Below are positions 10,301-28,195 of a stretch of DNA of 39,001 nt, piece after piece. The notes under the pieces are model-generated. The model was not told the DNA's origin, did not search any database, and worked only from the letters and a program-made list of their open reading frames with translations. This DNA is from Clostridia bacterium (GTDB lineage: Bacteria > Bacillota > Peptococcia > Peptococcales > SKKY01): NCBI GenBank assembly GCA_009930175.1, contig RZYW01000009.1:1-39001 (forward strand). Reading direction: 5' to 3'. Position 1 is the stretch's first letter. Each line of letters opens with the position of its first letter. The position numbers and the translations under genes are program-made.

Positions 10301-10561
10301 AATAATCCCATCGGGTCTTTCCTGAGCAATAATCTTTTCAATAGATTCAATATTTAAAGGTTCAATATAGACCCTGTCCGCTGTATTCTCATCTGTCATA
10401 ATCGTTGCCGGATTACTGTTAACGAGAACAACTTCGATACCCTCTTCTTTAATTGCTTTACAAGCCTGGGTACCTGCATAGTCAAACTCAGCAGCCTGAC
10501 CAATAATAATCGGCCCGGAACCTATAACCATAACTTTTTTTAAATCATCTCTTTTAGGCAT
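7376..10561 (-). CDS. carB: Carbamoyl-phosphate synthase large subunit
   Basis: 1061 aa; duplicated ATP-grasp halves ([27 protein letters not shown] and [28 protein letters not shown]), C-terminal MGS-like domain. Confidence 0.98.
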
Positions 10562-11615
10562 TTTTTACTCCTTCTATCAGCTTATAAAAATCATCAAACA
10601 AATACATAGAATCCGCAGGTCCAGGTGCTGCCTCAGGATGATATTGTACCGATAAAACCGGCAAAGTTTTATGACTTACTCCCTCAACAGTATTATCATT
10701 AAGATTTCTGTGAGAAACGTATAAGTCTGAGCCTAAAGACTCTTCCTTAACTGCATATCCATGATTCTGACTAGTTATAAATACCCTGTTACTTCTTAAG
10801 TCTTTAACTGGCTGATTAAGTCCCCGATGTCCAAACTTCATTTTATAAGTATCTGCACCTAGTGCCAGAGAAATTATTTGGTGTCCAAGGCAAATTCCAC
10901 AAATTGGTTTTTTCCCCAGGAAATACTTAACTATCTCAATTGCATTTTTTGCGTCTTTTGGGTCCCCTGGGCCATTCGAAAGAAAAATACCATCAGGATT
11001 TGCCTTCTCCAGTTCCTCAATAGTAGTCCAGGCAGGATAAACATCTACTGCGAAATTCTTTGATAGCAAACCCTTTAGAATACTTTGTTTAAGGCCCAAA
11101 TCAAGAACAGCAAGTTTTTTACCACCAGGATTTGGATATTTCAAAATCTTATCCGTTGTAACCATTTGAACCTGATTTCTTGAAAATTCCTCAAAATCTG
11201 TTTTACCCATATCATAAGCTGTGGTAATAATTCCCCTCATAGTGCCTTTGTTACGCAAATGCCTGGTTAAAGCCCTGGTGTCAACTCCCTCAAGGCCAAC
11301 TATCTTATGTGATGCCAAAAATTCTTCAAGACTTTCACTAGCCCTGTAATTTTCATAAAACATACTTTTTTCTCTAACTACAAAACCTCTTACATGGGAT
11401 TTGAGAGACTCTTTATCATCTATGTTAATTCCATAGTTGCCAATAAGAGGATAGGTCATAATTACAATCTGTCCGTAATAAGAAGGATCTGTAAGCACTT
11501 CTTGATATCCTGTCATCCCTGTATTAAAAACTACTTCTCCCTGGTTCTTCCCCATGTAGCCAAATACTTTTCCTGGGAAGCATGTGCCATCTTCCAATAT
11601 TAATACACCAGACAC
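10554..11615 (-). CDS. carA: Carbamoyl-phosphate synthase small (glutaminase) subunit
   Basis: 353 aa; [15 protein letters not shown] glutaminase motif; probable GTG start overlapping the argD stop by 1 nt; overlaps carB by 8 nt. Confidence 0.97.
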
Positions 11616-12796
11616 TAAGCGCTCACCTCCCTAAAAACTTCCTCTAAAGCCTTTATTACAATATCAATTTCCTCATATTTTACATTCAAAGGAGGAACAA
11701 ATCTTAAAGTCTTTCCTCCAATAGCATTAATCAAAATATTTTTCTCAAGCATTTTGCTTACAATTTCTCCCGCATCCTTAGGATAATCTAAGCCCACCAT
11801 TAAACCTTTGCCTTTAACTTTGCCAGGAAACAAAAATTGTTCCTTAAGTTTCCCTAGTTGCTCACGCATATATTGACCCTTTTCCTGAACTTCTCTAAGA
11901 AAATCTTCACAAAAAATAACCTGGCAGACATTTAAAGCAACATTCGTAACAAGAGGATTTCCACCAAAAGTAGAAGCATGATCTCCAGGCTGAAAGATTT
12001 CAGCCACCTCATCCTTTGCAAGCATTGCACCAATTGGTACTCCACCCCCGAGACCTTTAGCCAAAGTTATAATGTCTGGTTGAAAATCATAATTCTGGAA
12101 ACCAAAAGCCTTTCCTGTGCGTCCAACACCAGTCTGCACTTCATCAATTATGAGAAGAAGATTATGTTTTTTGCACAAGTCCTTTACACCTTTGAAAAAG
12201 TCCTCAGAAGGCTCGTTGATGCCTCCTTCACCTTGAATAGGTTCAAGCATAATTGCACAAGTTTTTTCAGATATCTGAGCCTGGATAGACTCAAGATCAT
12301 TAAAGACAGCATATTTAAATCCTGTTAGAACAGGAATAAATGATTTTTGATATTTTTCCTGACCCGTAGCAGCTAATGCACCCATCGTTCTGCCATGAAA
12401 AGACTGGATTGCAGAAATTATTTCATACCTTCCATTCCCCCATTTACGAGCAAGCTTTATAGCACCCTCATTTGCCTCAGCACCACTATTACAAAAGAAA
12501 GCCTTATCCATGCCCGCTGCCATACATAAAAGCTCTGCCAGATCAATTTGAGGCTCAATCCAATACAAATTAGAACAATGAATAAGTTTTTCACTTTGTT
12601 CCCTTAAAGCCTTATTAACAATCTCACTGTTATGTCCCAAAGAATTAACAGCAATACCAGCAACAAAGTCTAAATATTTATTTCCATCAGTATCATAAAC
12701 CCAAGAGCCTTCACCTTTTTCCAATACAACAGGGAGACGTCCATAGGTATTCATAATATACTTTTTACCTTTGGCAATTTTTTCTTCCATTTTCAT
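11615..12796 (-). CDS. argD: Acetylornithine aminotransferase
   Basis: 393 aa; class III aminotransferase; LLIIDEVQTGVGRTGKAFGFQ, PDIITLAKGLGGGVPIGAM. Confidence 0.95.
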   Translation of the reverse strand: MKMEEKIAKGKKYIMNTYGRLPVVLEKGEGSWVYDTDGNKYLDFVAGIAVNSLGHNSEIVNKALREQSEKLIHCSNLYWIEPQIDLAELLCMAAGMDKAFFCNSGAEANEGAIKLARKWGNGRYEIISAIQSFHGRTMGALAATGQEKYQKSFIPVLTGFKYAVFNDLESIQAQISEKTCAIMLEPIQGEGGINEPSEDFFKGVKDLCKKHNLLLIIDEVQTGVGRTGKAFGFQNYDFQPDIITLAKGLGGGVPIGAMLAKDEVAEIFQPGDHASTFGGNPLVTNVALNVCQVIFCEDFLREVQEKGQYMREQLGKLKEQFLFPGKVKGKGLMVGLDYPKDAGEIVSKMLEKNILINAIGGKTLRFVPPLNVKYEEIDIVIKALEEVFREVSA

Positions 12797-13683
12797 TAAA
12801 GATTTTCCCCCTCAACAAACATAGTACCAACACCCTTATCAGTGAATATTTCCAGCAATAAGGCGTGAAGTAAAGTACCATTAACAATATGGGCAGATGA
12901 TACTCCATTTTCAATTGCTTCCATACAACATTCAATTTTAGGAATCATCCCTCCAGAGATAGTCCCATCAGCAATCATTCTTTTCGCCGAAGCCTGGTCA
13001 ACTCTGGAAATCAATTTCCCTTCCTTATCCAGTACACCATCAATATCAGTGAGCAAAAATAACTTCTCAGCATTTAAACTCGCTGCAACACTTCCTGCTG
13101 CATAATCCGCATTAATATTATAAGACTGTCCTTTTTCATCAACACCAACGGGAGCAATTACCGGAATATATTTATCATTAATAGCCTTGTCAATTAGTGC
13201 AGGATTAACCTTTTCAACCTCACCAACAAATCCCAAATCGTAAATTTTTCCATCAATTTCCGCCATTTTCTTTTTTGCAAGAAGTGTCTGTCCATCAATC
13301 CCACTAAATCCAAGAGCCTTTATTCCATTATTTTCAAAAAGGGCAACAACTTCCTTGTTAACCTTGCCAATCAAGACCATCTGAACTACTTCCATGACCT
13401 TCTCATCAGTCACTCTCAAACCCTGAATAAATTTACTTTCAGAACCAGTCTTGGCAAGCCACTCATTTATGTCCGGACCACCACCATGAACAATTACAGG
13501 ATTTATTCCAACATACTTCATTAAAATAATATCATTAATAACCTGTTGTTTAAGTTCATCATCAACCATAGCATTCCCGCCATATTTAATTACAAAGGTT
13601 TTTCCAGAAAACTTTTTTATATATGGAAGAGCTTCAATTAATATTTTAGCCTTATCTCCAGGTGTAAGCTTACTCATATTCAT
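12796..13683 (-). CDS. argB: N-acetylglutamate kinase
   Basis: FVIKYGGNAMVDDELK, VIVHGGGPDINEWL; start placed at MNMSKLTPGDKA downstream of TTAGGAG; ORF track extends to 13713. Confidence 0.96.
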   Translation of the reverse strand: MNMSKLTPGDKAKILIEALPYIKKFSGKTFVIKYGGNAMVDDELKQQVINDIILMKYVGINPVIVHGGGPDINEWLAKTGSESKFIQGLRVTDEKVMEVVQMVLIGKVNKEVVALFENNGIKALGFSGIDGQTLLAKKKMAEIDGKIYDLGFVGEVEKVNPALIDKAINDKYIPVIAPVGVDEKGQSYNINADYAAGSVAASLNAEKLFLLTDIDGVLDKEGKLISRVDQASAKRMIADGTISGGMIPKIECCMEAIENGVSSAHIVNGTLLHALLLEIFTDKGVGTMFVEGENL

Positions 13684-13693
13684 TTCAATACTC

Positions 13694-14899
13694 CTAACTA
13701 CGATATTCCGCATTTATTTTTATATATTCATATGAAAGATCACAGGTCCAGGCAACAGCATTTTCAGAACCGATATTCAAATTACAAACAATCTCTATTT
13801 CTCTTTTTTTCAAGATTTCTAAAGCTGCGTCTTCATCGAAAACCATAGCTTTTCCCTGTTTAGCCATCATTAAATCCCCAAGAAAAATATCACATTTTGA
13901 AGGATCTATTTCAGCACCTGAATATCCAAGGGCGGTTATAATTCTGCCCCAATTAGCATCCTCACCAAAAAATGCAGTCTTTACCAGGCTGGATGTAGAT
14001 ATACTTCTTGCAGCCTTTCTTGCATCATCCTTAGTAAGAGCATTTAACACTTTAATCGTCAGAAGTTTAGTTGCACCTTCACCATCATTTACAATAGCAA
14101 TAGACATCTTCTCACAAATTTTACGCACTACATCTTTAAATTTAAGATACTCTTCAGTATTTTTCTCAATTACCAGATTACCCGCTTCACCGTTAGCCAA
14201 AATACAAACCATATCATTTGTACTTGTATCTCCATCAACAGAAATCATATTAAAAGTATCATCAATTACATCCTTAAAAATATCTTTTAGGGCATCTTTG
14301 CTCACCGCAGCATCTGTAGTAAGAAATCCAAGCATAGTAGCCATATTAGGATGAATCATCCCCGACCCCTTAGCCATTCCACCAATTCTTACAGTTTTCC
14401 CTCCAAGTTCAAACTCATAGGCAAACTCTTTATTCACAGTATCTGTTGTCATAATAGCAAGGCTGGCATCTGTTCCACCTTCCTCAGAGAGGTGGTTTTT
14501 TATTTCTTTTATACCAGCTTCAATTTTATCCATAGGAAGATATACCCCTATAACCCCAGTAGAAGCTACAATAATATCCTTTGCATCAATTCCCAATACA
14601 CTGGCAGTTAAAGAAGTCATTTTTAGAGCATCTGTCTTCCCTTGATCTCCGGTACAAGCGTTAGCACATCCGCTATTCACAATAATTGCCTGTGCCTCAT
14701 TATTTCCAAGATTCTCTTCTGAAACAAAAAGTGGTGGTGCCTTAAATTTATTTTTTGTATAAACCGCTGAAGCAATTCCTTTTTTTACAGAATAGATTAC
14801 AGCAAGATCTTTTTTCTTACTTCCTGGTTTAACACCAACATTTATTCCTGCCGCTAAAAATCCCTGAGGTGCAGTCACCCCACCATTTATTTTTTTCAT
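13694..14899 (-). CDS. argJ: Glutamate N-acetyltransferase/amino-acid N-acetyltransferase (ArgJ)
   Basis: 401 aa; KGSGMIHPNMATMLGFLTTDA contains the self-cleavage A-T site. Confidence 0.97.
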   Translation of the reverse strand: MKKINGGVTAPQGFLAAGINVGVKPGSKKKDLAVIYSVKKGIASAVYTKNKFKAPPLFVSEENLGNNEAQAIIVNSGCANACTGDQGKTDALKMTSLTASVLGIDAKDIIVASTGVIGVYLPMDKIEAGIKEIKNHLSEEGGTDASLAIMTTDTVNKEFAYEFELGGKTVRIGGMAKGSGMIHPNMATMLGFLTTDAAVSKDALKDIFKDVIDDTFNMISVDGDTSTNDMVCILANGEAGNLVIEKNTEEYLKFKDVVRKICEKMSIAIVNDGEGATKLLTIKVLNALTKDDARKAARSISTSSLVKTAFFGEDANWGRIITALGYSGAEIDPSKCDIFLGDLMMAKQGKAMVFDEDAALEILKKREIEIVCNLNIGSENAVAWTCDLSYEYIKINAEYRS

Positions 14900-14912
14900 T
14901 AACTTATTCCTC

Positions 14913-15953
14913 CTAAGGATATACTGGTAAAAAGTCTATACCTGTTTTTTCAGGTAATCCAAACATCAGATTCATATTTTGAACCGCCTGTCCTGATGCA
15001 CCTTTAATTAAATTATCTATTGCCGATACAACTATTAATTTATTACCCTCACCAGCCTTAACCAGTCCGATATCGCAAAAATTAGATGCAGATACCAATT
15101 TTGTTTGAGGTAATTTATCTTTCCTGACTCTAACAAAAAACTCATTATCATAAAAATCATCATATAATTTATACAAATCTTCAATACTATAATTTTCATT
15201 TAAATCTACATATATAGTAGAAAGAATTCCTCTAGTCATAGGCAGAAGATGGGGACTAAAAATTACCTGAAGATTCTCCAGCCCAGATGCGGCAACAAGC
15301 TCCTGTTTAATCTCTGGTGTATGACGATGTTTCCCAAGATTATAAGCATAAAAATTCTCATTTATTTCTGGATAATGAGTATGGTCTGCAGCTTTTTTAC
15401 CTGCTCCAGAAACCCCAGACTTACTATCGGCTATAACAGCCCCTTCAACAATCATCTTATTTTTCAGCAAAGGATACAGTCCAAGAATTATACTCGTTGG
15501 ATAACACCCTGGATTAGCAATTAAATCTGTATCTTTTATATCTTCTCTATATAACTCTGGAAGTCCATATACTGCATCCTTAAAATATTCTGGACATGAA
15601 TGTTTAACTCCATACCATTCTTCATAAATATCTAAATCTCTCAGACGAAAATCCGCAGATAAATCGATAATTTTTACTTTTCCCTTTATTTTTGCAACAA
15701 TTTCAGAAGCAGTACCATGAGGAAGAGCCAAAAATACAACGTCAAGACCCTCAACAAATTTTTCCGGATTATCAAGGCCTTCATCAACCATATCTATAAC
15801 TTTAAAAAGATGACTATGATTCTCAAAAATCTGACAATCCTTATTACTTCTGGATGCAACTCTTTTAATATTTACCTTCGGATGAGAATACAATAACCTT
15901 ATTAACTCCGCCCCCGTATATCCAGTTACTCCAATAATACCTGCCTGAATCAT
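14913..15953 (-). CDS. argC: N-acetyl-gamma-glutamyl-phosphate reductase
   Basis: MIQAGIIGVTGYTGAELIRLL, IANPGCYPTSIILGL; start at 15953 preceded by AAGGAGTGAT; the ORF track N-terminal extension runs into the promoter. Confidence 0.96.
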   Translation of the reverse strand: MIQAGIIGVTGYTGAELIRLLYSHPKVNIKRVASRSNKDCQIFENHSHLFKVIDMVDEGLDNPEKFVEGLDVVFLALPHGTASEIVAKIKGKVKIIDLSADFRLRDLDIYEEWYGVKHSCPEYFKDAVYGLPELYREDIKDTDLIANPGCYPTSIILGLYPLLKNKMIVEGAVIADSKSGVSGAGKKAADHTHYPEINENFYAYNLGKHRHTPEIKQELVAASGLENLQVIFSPHLLPMTRGILSTIYVDLNENYSIEDLYKLYDDFYDNEFFVRVRKDKLPQTKLVSASNFCDIGLVKAGEGNKLIVVSAIDNLIKGASGQAVQNMNLMFGLPEKTGIDFLPVYP

Positions 15954-15983
15954 AAATTCATCACTCCTTAAACTTGTCTTATT

Positions 15984-16012
15984 ATTATACATAATTATGC
16001 ATATATATACAA
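15984..16012 (-). promoter_or_regulatory. argC promoter overlapping a putative ArgR operator
   Basis: - strand TTGTAT-17-TATAAT (16007-16012 / 15984-15989); near-palindrome TATGCATAATTATGTATA (15986-16003). Confidence 0.7.
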
Positions 16013-16022
16013 ACATTTTGTT

Positions 16023-16049
16023 AAAAAAAAACCTGACAATAAGTCAAGT
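16023..16049 (-). terminator. Intrinsic terminator downstream of the HD-GYP gene
   Basis: - strand ACTTGAC-TTATT-GTCAGGT followed by nine T. Confidence 0.8.
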
Positions 16050-16050
16050 T

Positions 16051-17094
16051 TTATACTAGGTCCATAAGTTCTCTTTTATTCTCTGGTAATATTTCATTAA
16101 TAAATAATGTTCTTTCTTCCATTAAATTAACTCTCTTAAACTGAGAAAGTCTTGCCCCATATCTATCAGCAATTTCCATTACTTCAGGGCGGCTTGGCAA
16201 GCCATCTGAAAGCCTTAAAACAACAGCATATCGAAGATTGCTCAGTCTAACAAAAGATCCCACTGGAAAGGGAGCCACATGTTTTGTGAAAATATCCACC
16301 AATTTCGGATCAAACATTGTTCTTGTTAAACTCATAATTTTTTCAAGTGCCTGGTAAGGATACATTCTTTCTTTTTCCAAGTTCATAAAAGATAAATTAT
16401 CATAATAATTCGCAATAGCAACAATTTTAGAATACTCTTGTATTTCGTCCCCACTTATTTTTCTTGGGTACCCCGTCCCTTCATAATTTTCATGATGTTG
16501 AAATGCAATATGAGCAACCTGGGCCTTTATTTCAGGAATCTTCTTAAGAATTTCAAAGCCTTTTTCAGTATGCCCTTCACCTTCATCCTCTATTTTCCCA
16601 ATATCATGAAGCATAGCTCCTAAAGCAAGATCTTTTATTTGGAAATCATTATAGCCCAAGTACTTTCCTATTAGAATAGAAAGAACTGCTACATTTAAAC
16701 TGTGAACAAATAATTTAATTTTATCGCTATAAAAGTCCACCCCAGAAACAATTAAGTTCTTGCTACTTGTAACATCCTCAAGAACTTTATTGATTATATT
16801 GTGAATTTCTTTACTATCAATATCCTTACCACTTTTAATTCTGCCATGCATGTCCATCATTACCCTGACAAAATTAACTTTTACACTATCACTCACCAAA
16901 TCTTCTTTTTCTATTTCTTTTTCAAGAAGCTCATCTTTTACATAAACAAAAGGCAGACCCATGTCCTCAAGCCTTTTAACATATAGTTTTTTAACTACGG
17001 TGCCTTCTTTAAGTAAAAGTCTGCCTTCCTTGTCATAAACATTCTTAGCTATAATCTGGCCATCTTTAATATCCTCGATGGCAATTGATCTCAT
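16051..17094 (-). CDS. HD-GYP domain protein (putative cyclic-di-GMP phosphodiesterase)
   Basis: 347 aa; HSLNVAVLSILIGKYLG, MLHDIGKI, FQHHENYEGTGYPRKISGDEI, IVAIANYYDNL. Confidence 0.88.
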   Translation of the reverse strand: MRSIAIEDIKDGQIIAKNVYDKEGRLLLKEGTVVKKLYVKRLEDMGLPFVYVKDELLEKEIEKEDLVSDSVKVNFVRVMMDMHGRIKSGKDIDSKEIHNIINKVLEDVTSSKNLIVSGVDFYSDKIKLFVHSLNVAVLSILIGKYLGYNDFQIKDLALGAMLHDIGKIEDEGEGHTEKGFEILKKIPEIKAQVAHIAFQHHENYEGTGYPRKISGDEIQEYSKIVAIANYYDNLSFMNLEKERMYPYQALEKIMSLTRTMFDPKLVDIFTKHVAPFPVGSFVRLSNLRYAVVLRLSDGLPSRPEVMEIADRYGARLSQFKRVNLMEERTLFINEILPENKRELMDLV

Positions 17095-17116
17095 CTAAAA
17101 CTTTCCCACCTAATCT

Positions 17117-17530
17117 TTATTGAAGTATTTTTTCCAAGTCTATCAATTTTACCAGTCTTTCCTCCAACTTGGCAATACCAAATATATAATTTTTTTCTTT
17201 ATCTTCACCAATTCCCTCTTGCCTGTCAATTTGATCTTCTTCAATTTTTATAATTTCAGACACAGAATCAACTTTAAAACCATAGATTTTTTCACCTAAA
17301 GAAGCAACAATAATTCTTGTTCTGTCATCATCAGCAGATTCTTCCATTCCCAATATTTTTTTCATTGAAATAATTGGAATAACCTTCCCCCTGATATTTG
17401 TAACTCCAAGAATGTAAGCTGAAGTATTTGGCATTGCAGTTAATTCCTGCATCCTAATAATTTCATTTACGTTCATTATTTCCAAACCAAAATCCTCATT
17501 GTTTAATCTAAAAATTACTTCCTGAACCAT
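17117..17530 (-). CDS. cheW: CheW-like chemotaxis/signalling coupling protein
   Basis: 137 aa; FRLNNEDFGLEIMNVNEIIRMQELTAMPNTSAYILGVTNIRGKVIPIISMKKILG. Confidence 0.92.
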   Translation of the reverse strand: MVQEVIFRLNNEDFGLEIMNVNEIIRMQELTAMPNTSAYILGVTNIRGKVIPIISMKKILGMEESADDDRTRIIVASLGEKIYGFKVDSVSEIIKIEEDQIDRQEGIGEDKEKNYIFGIAKLEERLVKLIDLEKILQ

Positions 17531-17550
17531 TTCCTTCTCCTCCTAAAATA

Positions 17551-18408
17551 TTAAATATTTCCAACATAAACAAATTTCATATACTTTTCGGCAACATCCT
17601 TAATTGCCATTAAATTTTTCATACTAGTTGCTTGTTCATTAGACTTATAACAAGGATAATAACGATTAATATGAACAGGTATGTTCTGGTCAATTTCAGA
17701 CAACCATTCAAAGAATTTTTCCCCTTCCTCTATTTTATCATTAATCCCAGGAACAATTAAACAACTAATTTCAAGATGTCTTACTTTTGAGTTAATTAAT
17801 TTAAGATTTTTTTTAATCACATTAAAATCTGCAGAGAAATTTTTTAAATAACTTCCCTCAGAAAATGCTTTAACATCAATATTAAACGCATCAATATATT
17901 CCAAGAGATCAAGGAGAGGATTTTCTTCAATATACCCATTTGATACAAAAACATTCTTCAAGCCTTTTTCTCTTATAATTTTTGCCGCTTCCAACACATA
18001 CTCAATCATTATAACAGGCTCCGAGTAAGTATATGCAACTCCAATATTCCCGGAAGAAACCAGGTCTAAAGCCTTTTCCGCAAGATCTTCCGGAGATAAT
18101 TTAATTAGATTTTTATTTTCACACTGAGAAATTTGCCAGTTCTGGCAAAAATCACAATGAAAATTACAACCACTTGCCCCCGCAGATAAAATTTTACTAC
18201 CAGGGAAAAAATGAAATAATGGTTTCTTCTCAATAGGATCAATCGCTAAAGATGATATAAATTCATTTTCAGTGTACAACACACCTTCATGATTATACCT
18301 TGATCTGCAATATCCTCTATAGCTATTTTTTATTAAACACTTCCTTGGACAAAGAACACAAAGCACTTTCAATGAATCAAATTTTTCGTAATACCTACAT
18401 TCAAGCAT
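17551..18408 (-). CDS. amrS: AmmeMemoRadiSam system radical SAM enzyme
   Basis: 285 aa; CVLCPRKCLIKNSYRGYCRSR plus GASGCNFHCDFCQNWQIS (radical SAM CX3CX2C). Confidence 0.92.
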   Translation of the reverse strand: MLECRYYEKFDSLKVLCVLCPRKCLIKNSYRGYCRSRYNHEGVLYTENEFISSLAIDPIEKKPLFHFFPGSKILSAGASGCNFHCDFCQNWQISQCENKNLIKLSPEDLAEKALDLVSSGNIGVAYTYSEPVIMIEYVLEAAKIIREKGLKNVFVSNGYIEENPLLDLLEYIDAFNIDVKAFSEGSYLKNFSADFNVIKKNLKLINSKVRHLEISCLIVPGINDKIEEGEKFFEWLSEIDQNIPVHINRYYPCYKSNEQATSMKNLMAIKDVAEKYMKFVYVGNI

Positions 18409-18907
18409 ACCTTGTCACCTTAAACTTCTTAATATTATATTCTCCAGTAGTTATACCAGCCTTTTCTTTAGCGATATTTATTTGATGTTCAATTGAATCA
18501 ACCCCATCTAAATTAGGGAGAAGTAGTCCTTTTTTATAACCTTGCTCAACAATTACCCCATAAACTTTAGGATCTAATTCACTTATATCAGTGACTTCCT
18601 CCTCAGCTTCTAATACATCTGCAGAAATCTCTAAATCTCCAAACTCCTCTTTCCTAACAGGAGGAAATCTTGGGTCTTCAGATGCAGCAGCAATAGCATT
18701 ATTTATAATTTCCTCTTCAAGAGGGAACCTACCCTTTATAGTTCCAATACAGCCCCTAAGTATTCCACCTTTTTTTAAAGACACAAAAACACCTTTTTTA
18801 ATATCATTTTCAACAAATCTACTTTTTAATTTCACTCTTTCCCCATATTCTAAGTAATGAGATATTGCCAAGGATGCAATTTCCACAAATTTATTATTCA
18901 TATTCAA
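18401..18907 (-). CDS. amrA: AMMECR1-family protein (AmmeMemoRadiSam protein A)
   Basis: 168 aa; GVFVSLKKGGILRGCIGTIKGRFPLEEEIINNAIAAASEDPRFPPVRKEEFGDLEISADVL; overlaps amrS by 8 nt. The ORF-track start is TTG; ATG at 18901 is the likelier start. Confidence 0.92.
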   Translation of the reverse strand: MNMNNKFVEIASLAISHYLEYGERVKLKSRFVENDIKKGVFVSLKKGGILRGCIGTIKGRFPLEEEIINNAIAAASEDPRFPPVRKEEFGDLEISADVLEAEEEVTDISELDPKVYGVIVEQGYKKGLLLPNLDGVDSIEHQINIAKEKAGITTGEYNIKKFKVTRYA

Positions 18908-19688
18908 TATCTCCCTTCCCTACCAAATATCCAACTCCAAAAGGCTTTTCATAACTAAAGACCTCACTACTAACTTTCAAACCAGAAACAGCAAAAGCAG
19001 CCAAAAGAAGCGGTATATAACCACATTGGCCTGCTCCCTCAACTATTTCAGACGGTATATTAATCAATTCCTCAACTTTCCCATTCTGGACAGCTTCAAA
19101 CACCATTTCATCAAAAACAGGGCCTTCTTCTGAAAAACCATAATACGAATCCTCTTTTAGCCTATGGCTTAAATCCGCTGATACAATTAATCCAAAATCT
19201 TCATTCTTATAAACACTATCCCCATTCAAAACACACCCTATAATTTTGCCCATTTTTTCCAGCTCTTTCTTTTCCATAAAACCAGTACTAATACTAATCA
19301 ATTCAATTTTCTTGCCCAACTTCTCAAAAAAATATAAAGGAACCAATACCCCGTGATCTAAAGGAGCTTTTATTGGATAAAAACCTTTTTCCGAAAACTC
19401 CACACTTAGTTTTGAAATATTCTTAAATTCAAATCTCTTGTAATAATTAAAATTCTTTAAATCCCCAATCAGTCTTTCATTAACATTAATTGCAAGCATC
19501 CTTGAATATGCAGGACCATGAGGAGAAATAACCAATATCTTTGTAATACCCTCATCAATAAATTCTTTAGCTAACCTCTCCATTGATTCATAAGTTTTGG
19601 CAACCTTATTGCTCTCATCCTTACCTATTTCTGGAATAACAATTGGAGGATGAGGGAATATCCCAATTTTTTTTATCATTTTTATCAC
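18894..19688 (-). CDS. amrB: MEMO1/extradiol dioxygenase-like protein (AmmeMemoRadiSam protein B)
   Basis: 264 aa; IGIFPHPPIVIPEIG, LVISPHGPAYSRM, LIVSADLSHRL, GAGQCGYIPLLLAAF; overlaps amrA by 14 nt or less. Confidence 0.9.
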   Translation of the reverse strand: MIKMIKKIGIFPHPPIVIPEIGKDESNKVAKTYESMERLAKEFIDEGITKILVISPHGPAYSRMLAINVNERLIGDLKNFNYYKRFEFKNISKLSVEFSEKGFYPIKAPLDHGVLVPLYFFEKLGKKIELISISTGFMEKKELEKMGKIIGCVLNGDSVYKNEDFGLIVSADLSHRLKEDSYYGFSEEGPVFDEMVFEAVQNGKVEELINIPSEIVEGAGQCGYIPLLLAAFAVSGLKVSSEVFSYEKPFGVGYLVGKGDIEYE

Positions 19689-19713
19689 CCGAAATTACTT
19701 ACCCTATTTACAC

Positions 19714-19750
19714 AAAAAAAATCATCTGCGTATAAAATACACAGATGATT
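19714..19750 (-). terminator. Intrinsic terminator downstream of rpsI
   Basis: - strand ATCATCTGTGTATTTTATACGCAGATGATTTTTTTT. Confidence 0.88.
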
Positions 19751-19763
19751 ATAGTTATTATTA

Positions 19764-20159
19764 TTATCTTTTTGAAAACTGAGAAGCTTTACGCGCCTTT
19801 TTAAGACCGTATTTTCTTCTTTCCTTCATTCTTGGGTCTCTTGTTAAGAAACCTGCTCTTTTTAGTGATGGTCTTAAACCTGGCTCTGCTTTAAGTAATG
19901 CTCTTGCAATACCTAATCTAATTGCGCCAGCCTGGCCTGTTCCGCCACCGCCCTGAACTTTACATACAACATTAAATCTACCTTCTGTCTCAGTTAATAC
20001 CAGAGGTTGCTTAATGATCATTTCTAAAGTCTTTTTATCAACATAATTTTCTAATTCTCTGCCATTAATAGTGATATTTCCATCTCCTGGCAATAATCTT
20101 ACTCTTGCAATTGACTTCTTACGACGTCCTGTTCCATAGTATTGAACTTGATCTGCCAT
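19764..20159 (-). CDS. rpsI: 30S ribosomal protein S9
   Basis: [19 protein letters not shown]... C-term [14 protein letters not shown]; start MADQVQ after AGGAAGGAGG; ORF track extends to 20189. Confidence 0.98.
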
Positions 20160-20176
20160 AATTTGCTTCCTCCTTC

Positions 20177-20608
20177 CTAACCTTGCCATACTTCAGGTTG
20201 CTGTGCTTGATGAGGATGCTCAGAACCTTGGTAGACATTTAATTTTGTAAACATTTTTGCACCCAAACGATTATGGGGAAGCATGCCTTTTACAGCTACT
20301 TCAATGGCTAATTCAGGTCTTTTTTCTAATAGATCTCTATACTTAGTCCTTTTTAAACCACCAGGATGTCCACTGTGACGAATTAATTCTTTTTGATCTA
20401 ATTTCTTCCCTGTAAGCTGAATTTTCTCTGCATTAATAATGATTACGTGATCACCGCAATCAACATTTGGTGTAAATGTAGGTTTGTGTTTTCCTCTTAA
20501 TACTGAAGCAACTACAGAAGCCAATCTTCCTAAAGTTTGTCCTTCTGCGTCAAAAATATACCATTTTTTTTCCACTTCAGTTGGCTTAGCCATGTACGTG
20601 GTACGCAT
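20177..20608 (-). CDS. rplM: 50S ribosomal protein L13
   Basis: 143 aa; [49 protein letters not shown]. Confidence 0.98.
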
Positions 20609-27172: not shown

Positions 27173-27451
27173 TCAACTCTTTGTAAGCAATCTTTCCAAT
27201 GCATCACGAATATCTTTGTTTGTAACTTTCAGACCATTTTCAAGTTTTTCCTTTAATTCCTGGTCCGTTTTTTCAGAATACCATAAATGGTTTATATTTT
27301 TTTTCTTGGGATTACTAATTCTTTTATATTCTCCATCGATAACGTAAACAAAAGACGTGTCCCAATCATAAATAATATAATTTGTGTTCTTATCACGACC
27401 AGCTCTGGAAGTTACGAGTTGACCTTTTTGTATTTCTCTCATCATTGGCAT
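27173..27451 (-). CDS. KOW-domain (L14e/L27e-like) putative RNA-binding protein
   Basis: 92 aa; IQKGQLVTSRAGRDKNTNYIIYDWDTSFVYVIDGEYKRISNPKKKNINHL; located upstream of infA as in many Firmicutes. Confidence 0.8.
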   Translation of the reverse strand: MPMMREIQKGQLVTSRAGRDKNTNYIIYDWDTSFVYVIDGEYKRISNPKKKNINHLWYSEKTDQELKEKLENGLKVTNKDIRDALERLLTKS

Positions 27452-27532
27452 AAAATCACCTTTTTAATTAATTAGGGAGTAAAATCAGAATAAATTATGA
27501 GTATATCTAGATAAGTCTCACCCACTTAAACT

Positions 27533-28195
<663 letters not shown>

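Follow-up and report, generated by a model that had tools for sequence, protein, structure and literature searches.

An AmmeMemoRadiSam locus with a LigB-type B protein in a Clostridia bacterium

The trio and the described system

The AmmeMemoRadiSam system (TIGR04335/TIGR04336/TIGR04337) is already described, and the association of Memo, AMMECR1 and radical SAM proteins is attributed to Burroughs et al. 2019 (10.1074/jbc.RA119.007595), as cited in PMC7159879. Human MEMO1 binds iron through H49, H81 and C244, and binding is abolished by H49A or C244S. These ligands correspond to H12, H61 and E242 of LigB and to H13, H62 and E251 of aminophenol dioxygenase, while D189 and H192 of MEMO1 lie near the metal and have no ligand role (PMC11081632).

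In the window, that is, the whole stretch of 39,001 nucleotides that was analysed, amrB, amrA and amrS follow each other in this order on the minus strand (19688-17551; Table 1), as three overlapping reading frames at the places originally predicted. The locus is an ordinary further copy of the described system. Its identification as AmmeMemoRadiSam was borne out by HMM search: AmrA matched PF01871 at 140 bits and TIGR04335 at 125 bits (cut-off 99), and AmrS matched TIGR04337 at 241.2 bits (cut-off 220) and PF04055 at 61.4 bits. The B-A-S order, the adjacency of the genes and their co-occurrence are likewise shared. The locus differs from the described system in two respects. Its B protein belongs to the LigB branch and scored 25.7 bits against TIGR04336, missing the cut-off of 26 by 0.3 bits, so that the locus was filed as a LigB-type variant of AmmeMemoRadiSam without a canonical B. 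Moreover, A and B are separate proteins, whereas they are mostly fused in close relatives.

Table 1. Positions of genes, candidate functional residues and terminators at the amr locus.
Feature	Position	Strand	Remark
Intrinsic terminator rpsI/amrB	19720..19750	-	14-bp stem and T tract; fold z-score -4.68
amrB	18894-19688	-	264 aa (GTG start) or 261 aa (ATG start at 19679); LigB-type domain
Candidate metal ligand His10 (FPHPP)	19650..19652	-	numbered from ATG 19679; H13, an Fe ligand in 3VSH, aligns here
Candidate metal ligand His54 (SPHGP)	19518..19520	-	counterpart of the superfamily's second ligand His
Asp169 to His172 of SADLSH	19164..19175	-	counterpart of MEMO1 D189/H192
Gln218-Cys219 of AGQCG	19023..19028	-	Gln at the dioxygenase Glu-ligand column; Cys similar to MEMO1 C244
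amrA	18401-18901	-	166 aa from ATG 18901; AMMECR1 domain
AMMECR1 motif LRGCIG	18743..18760	-	R, G and C in 106/106
amrS	17551-18408	-	285 aa; radical SAM enzyme, short form without C-terminal Cys tail
AmrS N-terminal four-Cys cluster C17, C20, C24, C34 (CX2CX3CX9C)	18307..18360	-	
AmrS radical SAM motif CX3CX2C (C81, C85, C88)	18145..18168	-	
CheW-like gene directly downstream of amrS	17117..17530	-	PF01584, 132 bits
HD-GYP-type HD domain gene, last before next terminator	16051..17094	-	PF13487, 73 bits
Terminator-like site	16028..16052	-	closes a possible amrB-amrA-amrS-cheW-HD unit

Neighbouring genes overlap by 8 nt each. For amrA and amrS (ATGCTTGA) this is the overlap originally given. 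For amrB and amrA (ATGAATAA), the 14 nt of the original prediction are obtained only if amrA starts at TTG 18907; a start at ATG 18901, which lies 9 nt downstream of a GGGAG ribosome-binding site and shortens the overlap to 8 nt, is the likelier one by its sequence context. The separation of amrB from amrA is not a frameshift artefact, since the congener is split alike; two further split cases were found.

Structures of archaeal AMMECR1 proteins (1zq7, 1vaj and 1wsc) agree with the assignment of AmrA. In AmrS, the CX3CX2C motif (CNFHCDFC) and the N-terminal cysteine cluster are present as predicted, and both are invariant in the 24 class-level sequences; the four-Cys cluster is also at least 90% conserved in 56 sequences. 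AmrS shares the CX3CX2C motif and a distant sequence similarity with PFL activase and the radical SAM activases related to it. However, it reached only 53 bits against the PFL activase model TIGR02493, far under the cut-off of 231.75, and has an N-terminal four-Cys cluster of its own, so that it does not fall among the ordinary PFL activases. Only 285 of the 349 model positions of TIGR04337 were matched, but a truncation of the gene was ruled out, as lengths of 275-295 aa are usual in the class; the missing part is a C-terminal Cys-rich tail confined to longer forms. A search of phage records for AmrS found none.

The B protein and its candidate metal site

AmrB had been predicted to be MEMO1-like, and this part of the prediction was not upheld. 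The protein matched PF02900 (LigB) at 82.6 bits (cut-off 26.3) and reached 13.6 bits against PF01875 (Memo), below the cut-off of 27; the PF01875 search of the host genome gave no match. With the AlphaFold2 model of AmrB (pLDDT 93.6, pTM 0.92) as Foldseek query, TK2203 was the best match (TMq 0.77), DHPAO scored 0.75 and aminophenol/DOPA dioxygenases 0.68-0.77, whereas MEMO1 was weaker (0.60-0.63). The fold matches of a fused relative ranked in the same order, the dioxygenase side before MEMO1. By HMM and by predicted fold, AmrB is thus a LigB or class III extradiol-dioxygenase-type domain, and not a member of the Memo family.

TK2203 (5HEE), an archaeal extradiol-dioxygenase-like protein, has the closest solved fold but lacks the cysteine that is invariant in AmrB, with ALPDSY at that place. 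The class III extradiol dioxygenases (LigB, DHPAO 8IQ8, aminophenol dioxygenase 3VSH and DODA) share PF02900, the fold and two His ligands with AmrB; they differ in their third ligand, a Glu that is Gln in AmrB, and in that the host of AmrB appears anaerobic. Human MEMO1 (7KQ8) falls into the fold class of AmrB, with a TM of about 0.6, and likewise has two His, SxDxxH and a Cys, which is iron-binding in MEMO1, but its identity to AmrB is about 15%, it belongs to another HMM family, and dioxygenases have closer folds. Despite its placement on the dioxygenase side, the LigB-type AmrB family bridges to Memo in profile comparisons. TIGR04336 was matched by 57 of 62 fused relatives at E≤0.001, and a protein from another member of the host's order scored 34.8 bits against it, above the cut-off. 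Fourteen of 21 LigB-type domains also matched PF01875 at E≤0.01, and hhalign of LigB-type AmrB with standalone Memo proteins gave a probability of 96.

All motifs quoted in the original prediction for AmrB, as for AmrS, were found in the sequence. The candidate metal ligands that AmrB was said to keep (in FPHPP, SPHGP, SADLSH and GQCGY) are indeed kept: all 106 LigB-type AmrB sequences have both His, the Asp and His of SxDxSH and the Cys of A[GA]xCG, and for this reason the motifs are not due to chance. The residue before the invariant Cys, position 218, is less constant (Glu in 98 of the 106, Gln in seven and Val in one) and is Gln in the host genus. In a profile alignment to 3vsg_B, H13 falls on His10 and E251 on position 218. 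The 2-His-1-Glu ligand set of the class III enzymes is therefore incomplete in AmrB, as Gln218 occupies the E251 column of 3VSH; the original prediction had overlooked this exchange and the MEMO-like Cys beside it. Because the dioxygenase Glu aligns to position 218 and not to 219, it could be the Glu or Gln, rather than the Cys, that faces the metal.

The AmrB partners of the Memo type carry a conserved Cys as well, in an ACG motif. When the two types were aligned with hhalign, the Cys was offset by three residues; since the column is shifted in profile alignments, the equivalence rests on the common pattern CGxx[PA][LI]. By this pattern, Cys219 of LigB-type AmrB is likely the same Cys as that of the Memo type.

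Distribution, fusion and gene neighbourhood

AMMECR1 is present in 29 of 46 genomes of the host's class, with AmrS directly downstream in nearly all of them. LigB and AMMECR1 are fused in 24 of these 29, in a frame of 440-620 aa with AMMECR1 at the C terminus; among the remaining five, three are interrupted by contig ends and two, the window genome and its congener, are unfused. The NCBI conserved-domain database contains a class for the fusion of a LigB-type domain with AMMECR1. Two changes between the split and the fused state are needed on the tree, which does not fix their direction. A search of genome contigs with AmrA alone returned no relatives and was redone with an alignment. The fusion was found in 80 of 80 named loci, mostly from Bacillota, but these had been retrieved with a fused query, so that the sample is biased to fusions. 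AmrS lies downstream within 100 nt in 57 of the 80 loci and within 1 kb in 10 more (67/80), and is upstream of the fusion or overlaps it in three. On a Chloroflexota contig, AmrS is upstream, then comes the LigB-AMMECR1 fusion and then a second, separate AMMECR1-like frame.

Co-occurrence of the families, which the original prediction had taken as established, was confirmed at the level of the phylum. An even sample of 250 genomes was surveyed, with PF01871 for AMMECR1 and TIGR04337 at E≤1e-40 for AmrS. AMMECR1 was found in 190 genomes and AmrS in 186, all of them inside those 190 (Fisher p 1.6e-53, not corrected for phylogeny); none of the 60 AMMECR1-negative genomes had AmrS, and four had AMMECR1 without AmrS. 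Both are absent from several members of the host's order. The system thus occurs in most of the phylum genomes sampled, and two of its parts are related to human MEMO1 and AMMECR1. Fusion and co-occurrence together support a joint function of AmrB, AmrA and AmrS, though not a particular reaction.

Examples of Memo-type AmrB were drawn from plasmid records. Plasmids from Segatella hominis and Ideonella dechloratans carry a Memo::AMMECR1 fusion followed by AmrS, and the pair is annotated amrB-amrS. The fusion slot and the order are the same as in the LigB-type relatives, and AmrS is 36-41% identical. In contrast, the B domain is there a true PF01875 Memo (154-194 bits), clearly homologous to MEMO1 (E 1e-32). 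As the fusion slot of Bacteroidota and Proteobacteria holds Memo instead of LigB, the two B types look interchangeable, and since one architecture occurs with either of them, we infer that they are functionally equivalent. The B slot takes a LigB-type or a Memo-type domain, the residue never lost being the Cys and not the dioxygenase Glu.

Homologues also occur in some aerobes, on plasmids of Ideonella, Methylocystis and Sinorhizobium. The Memo::AMMECR1-AmrS pair of the Ideonella plasmid is near arsenic-resistance genes (L169, 4001-8855), and AmrS of the Methylocystis plasmid has mercury-resistance genes in its vicinity, together with a divergent radical SAM gene (L170, 2962-8855). Standalone Memo proteins were considered as the separate B of the phylum and rejected, since in those found the Cys is absent and neither A nor S lies within 1.5 kb. 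These PF01875 proteins (L117-L129) have a signal- or lipoprotein-like N terminus and NDYLDSP where the ligand Cys would be expected.

The terminator between rpsI and amrB sets the trio apart from the ribosomal operon. The cheW-HD order recurred, whole or in part, in 12 of the 21 class regions examined, that of the congener included, and cheW directly follows amrS in six families of the class. The wider order rplM-rpsI-amrBAS-cheW-HD-argC-argJ-argB-argD-carA (10554-20608) is conserved in the class and, to some extent, in the phylum. From these comparisons we regard the amr-cheW-HD neighbourhood as a conserved gene order. Four CheW-domain frames were counted in the host genome, one of them inside a CheA-sized frame of 670 aa. 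An Rfam search of the window gave no match. Elsewhere in the window, adk is separated from the infA-rpsM region by an interval (27173-28177) in which a map gene is often located; it has a KOW-like ORF of 92 aa and no evident map gene.

Possible function and alternatives

A literature search found no paper stating the reaction of the AmmeMemoRadiSam system. The abstract of Burroughs and co-workers reportedly links Memo to the modification of nucleotide bases and isoprenoids.

The reading that we tentatively favour, with slightly less than even confidence, is that of a LigB-type AmmeMemoRadiSam system in which an oxygen-independent metal-site/AMMECR1 module and the radical SAM protein AmrS act on a common substrate. 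AmrB and AmrA are taken as one module because they are fused in relatives and because the fused protein is predicted with a confident two-domain fold (pTM 0.86). This module would be built around a metal ion on His10, His54 and Cys219, in a 2-His-1-Cys arrangement like that of MEMO1, with Asp169 and His172 as putative acid-base residues. The LRGCIG surface of AMMECR1 might complete the metal site or bind the substrate. AmrBA would bind and position the substrate, or perform a non-oxygenase step, and AmrS would take a hydrogen atom from the substrate held by AmrBA, via a SAM-derived radical.

A bolder version of this reading appears rather doubtful. In it, LigB-type AmrB would be an oxygen-independent 2-His-1-Cys metalloenzyme in which the dioxygenase Glu is swapped for the MEMO-type Cys; it would form one catalytic unit with AMMECR1, served by AmrS, and bacterial AmrBA would be a tractable counterpart of a human MEMO1-AMMECR1 module.

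AmrS might instead be an activase that puts a radical or a modification on AmrB or AmrA itself, so that AmrBA would be its target and not a substrate carrier. The relationship in sequence of AmrS to PFL-activase-type proteins, its strict co-occurrence and adjacency with AmrBA, and the invariant Cys and Gly motifs of AmrA and AmrB would fit such a role. We nevertheless consider it unlikely, since AmrS is far under the cut-off of the PFL activase model and no HMM marks AmrA or AmrB as a glycyl-radical enzyme; in addition, eukaryotes keep MEMO1 and AMMECR1 and, to our knowledge, have no AmrS partner.

There is also a small chance that the three proteins share no biochemical step, AmrBA being an iron/copper-handling or redox protein and the linkage a consequence of the conserved order in the rpsI-argC region. 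MEMO1 is an Fe- and Cu-binding protein with an effect on iron homeostasis (PMC11081632), and the trio does sit in a conserved rpsI-amr-(cheW-HD)-argCJBD order. However, the presence of A in genomes of the phylum goes hand in hand with that of S, and the arrangement B::A-S is met again, among different neighbours, in Bacteroidota and Proteobacteria.

The host appears to be an anaerobe, as judged from its gene content: a search of the genome for COX1 gave no match, and one Fe-hydrogenase was found. A trait model counts AMMECR1 among its seven indicators of anaerobes, with a presence in 50.66% of anaerobes and 3.38% of aerobes (PMC13386939). The apparently anaerobic life of the host argues against AmrBA being an O2-dependent ring-opening dioxygenase, and together with the occurrence of AMMECR1 mainly in anaerobes it makes O2-dependent ring cleavage unlikely as a general function, though some aerobes have homologues. 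It is thus most improbable that AmrB functions as a class III extradiol dioxygenase, opening aromatic rings with O2 at a 2-His-1-carboxylate Fe, with AmrA as an accessory and AmrS separate: the match to PF02900, the nearest solved folds (class III dioxygenases and TK2203) and the Glu kept at the canonical ligand column in 98 of 106 relatives would favour it, but the AmrB of the window has Gln in that column, the invariant residue is Cys and not Glu, the host has an Fe-hydrogenase and no COX1 match, and MEMO1 showed no dioxygenase activity on standard substrates (PMC11081632).

In the host genus, A and B exist naturally as two proteins, and this simplifies tests of interaction and of metal.
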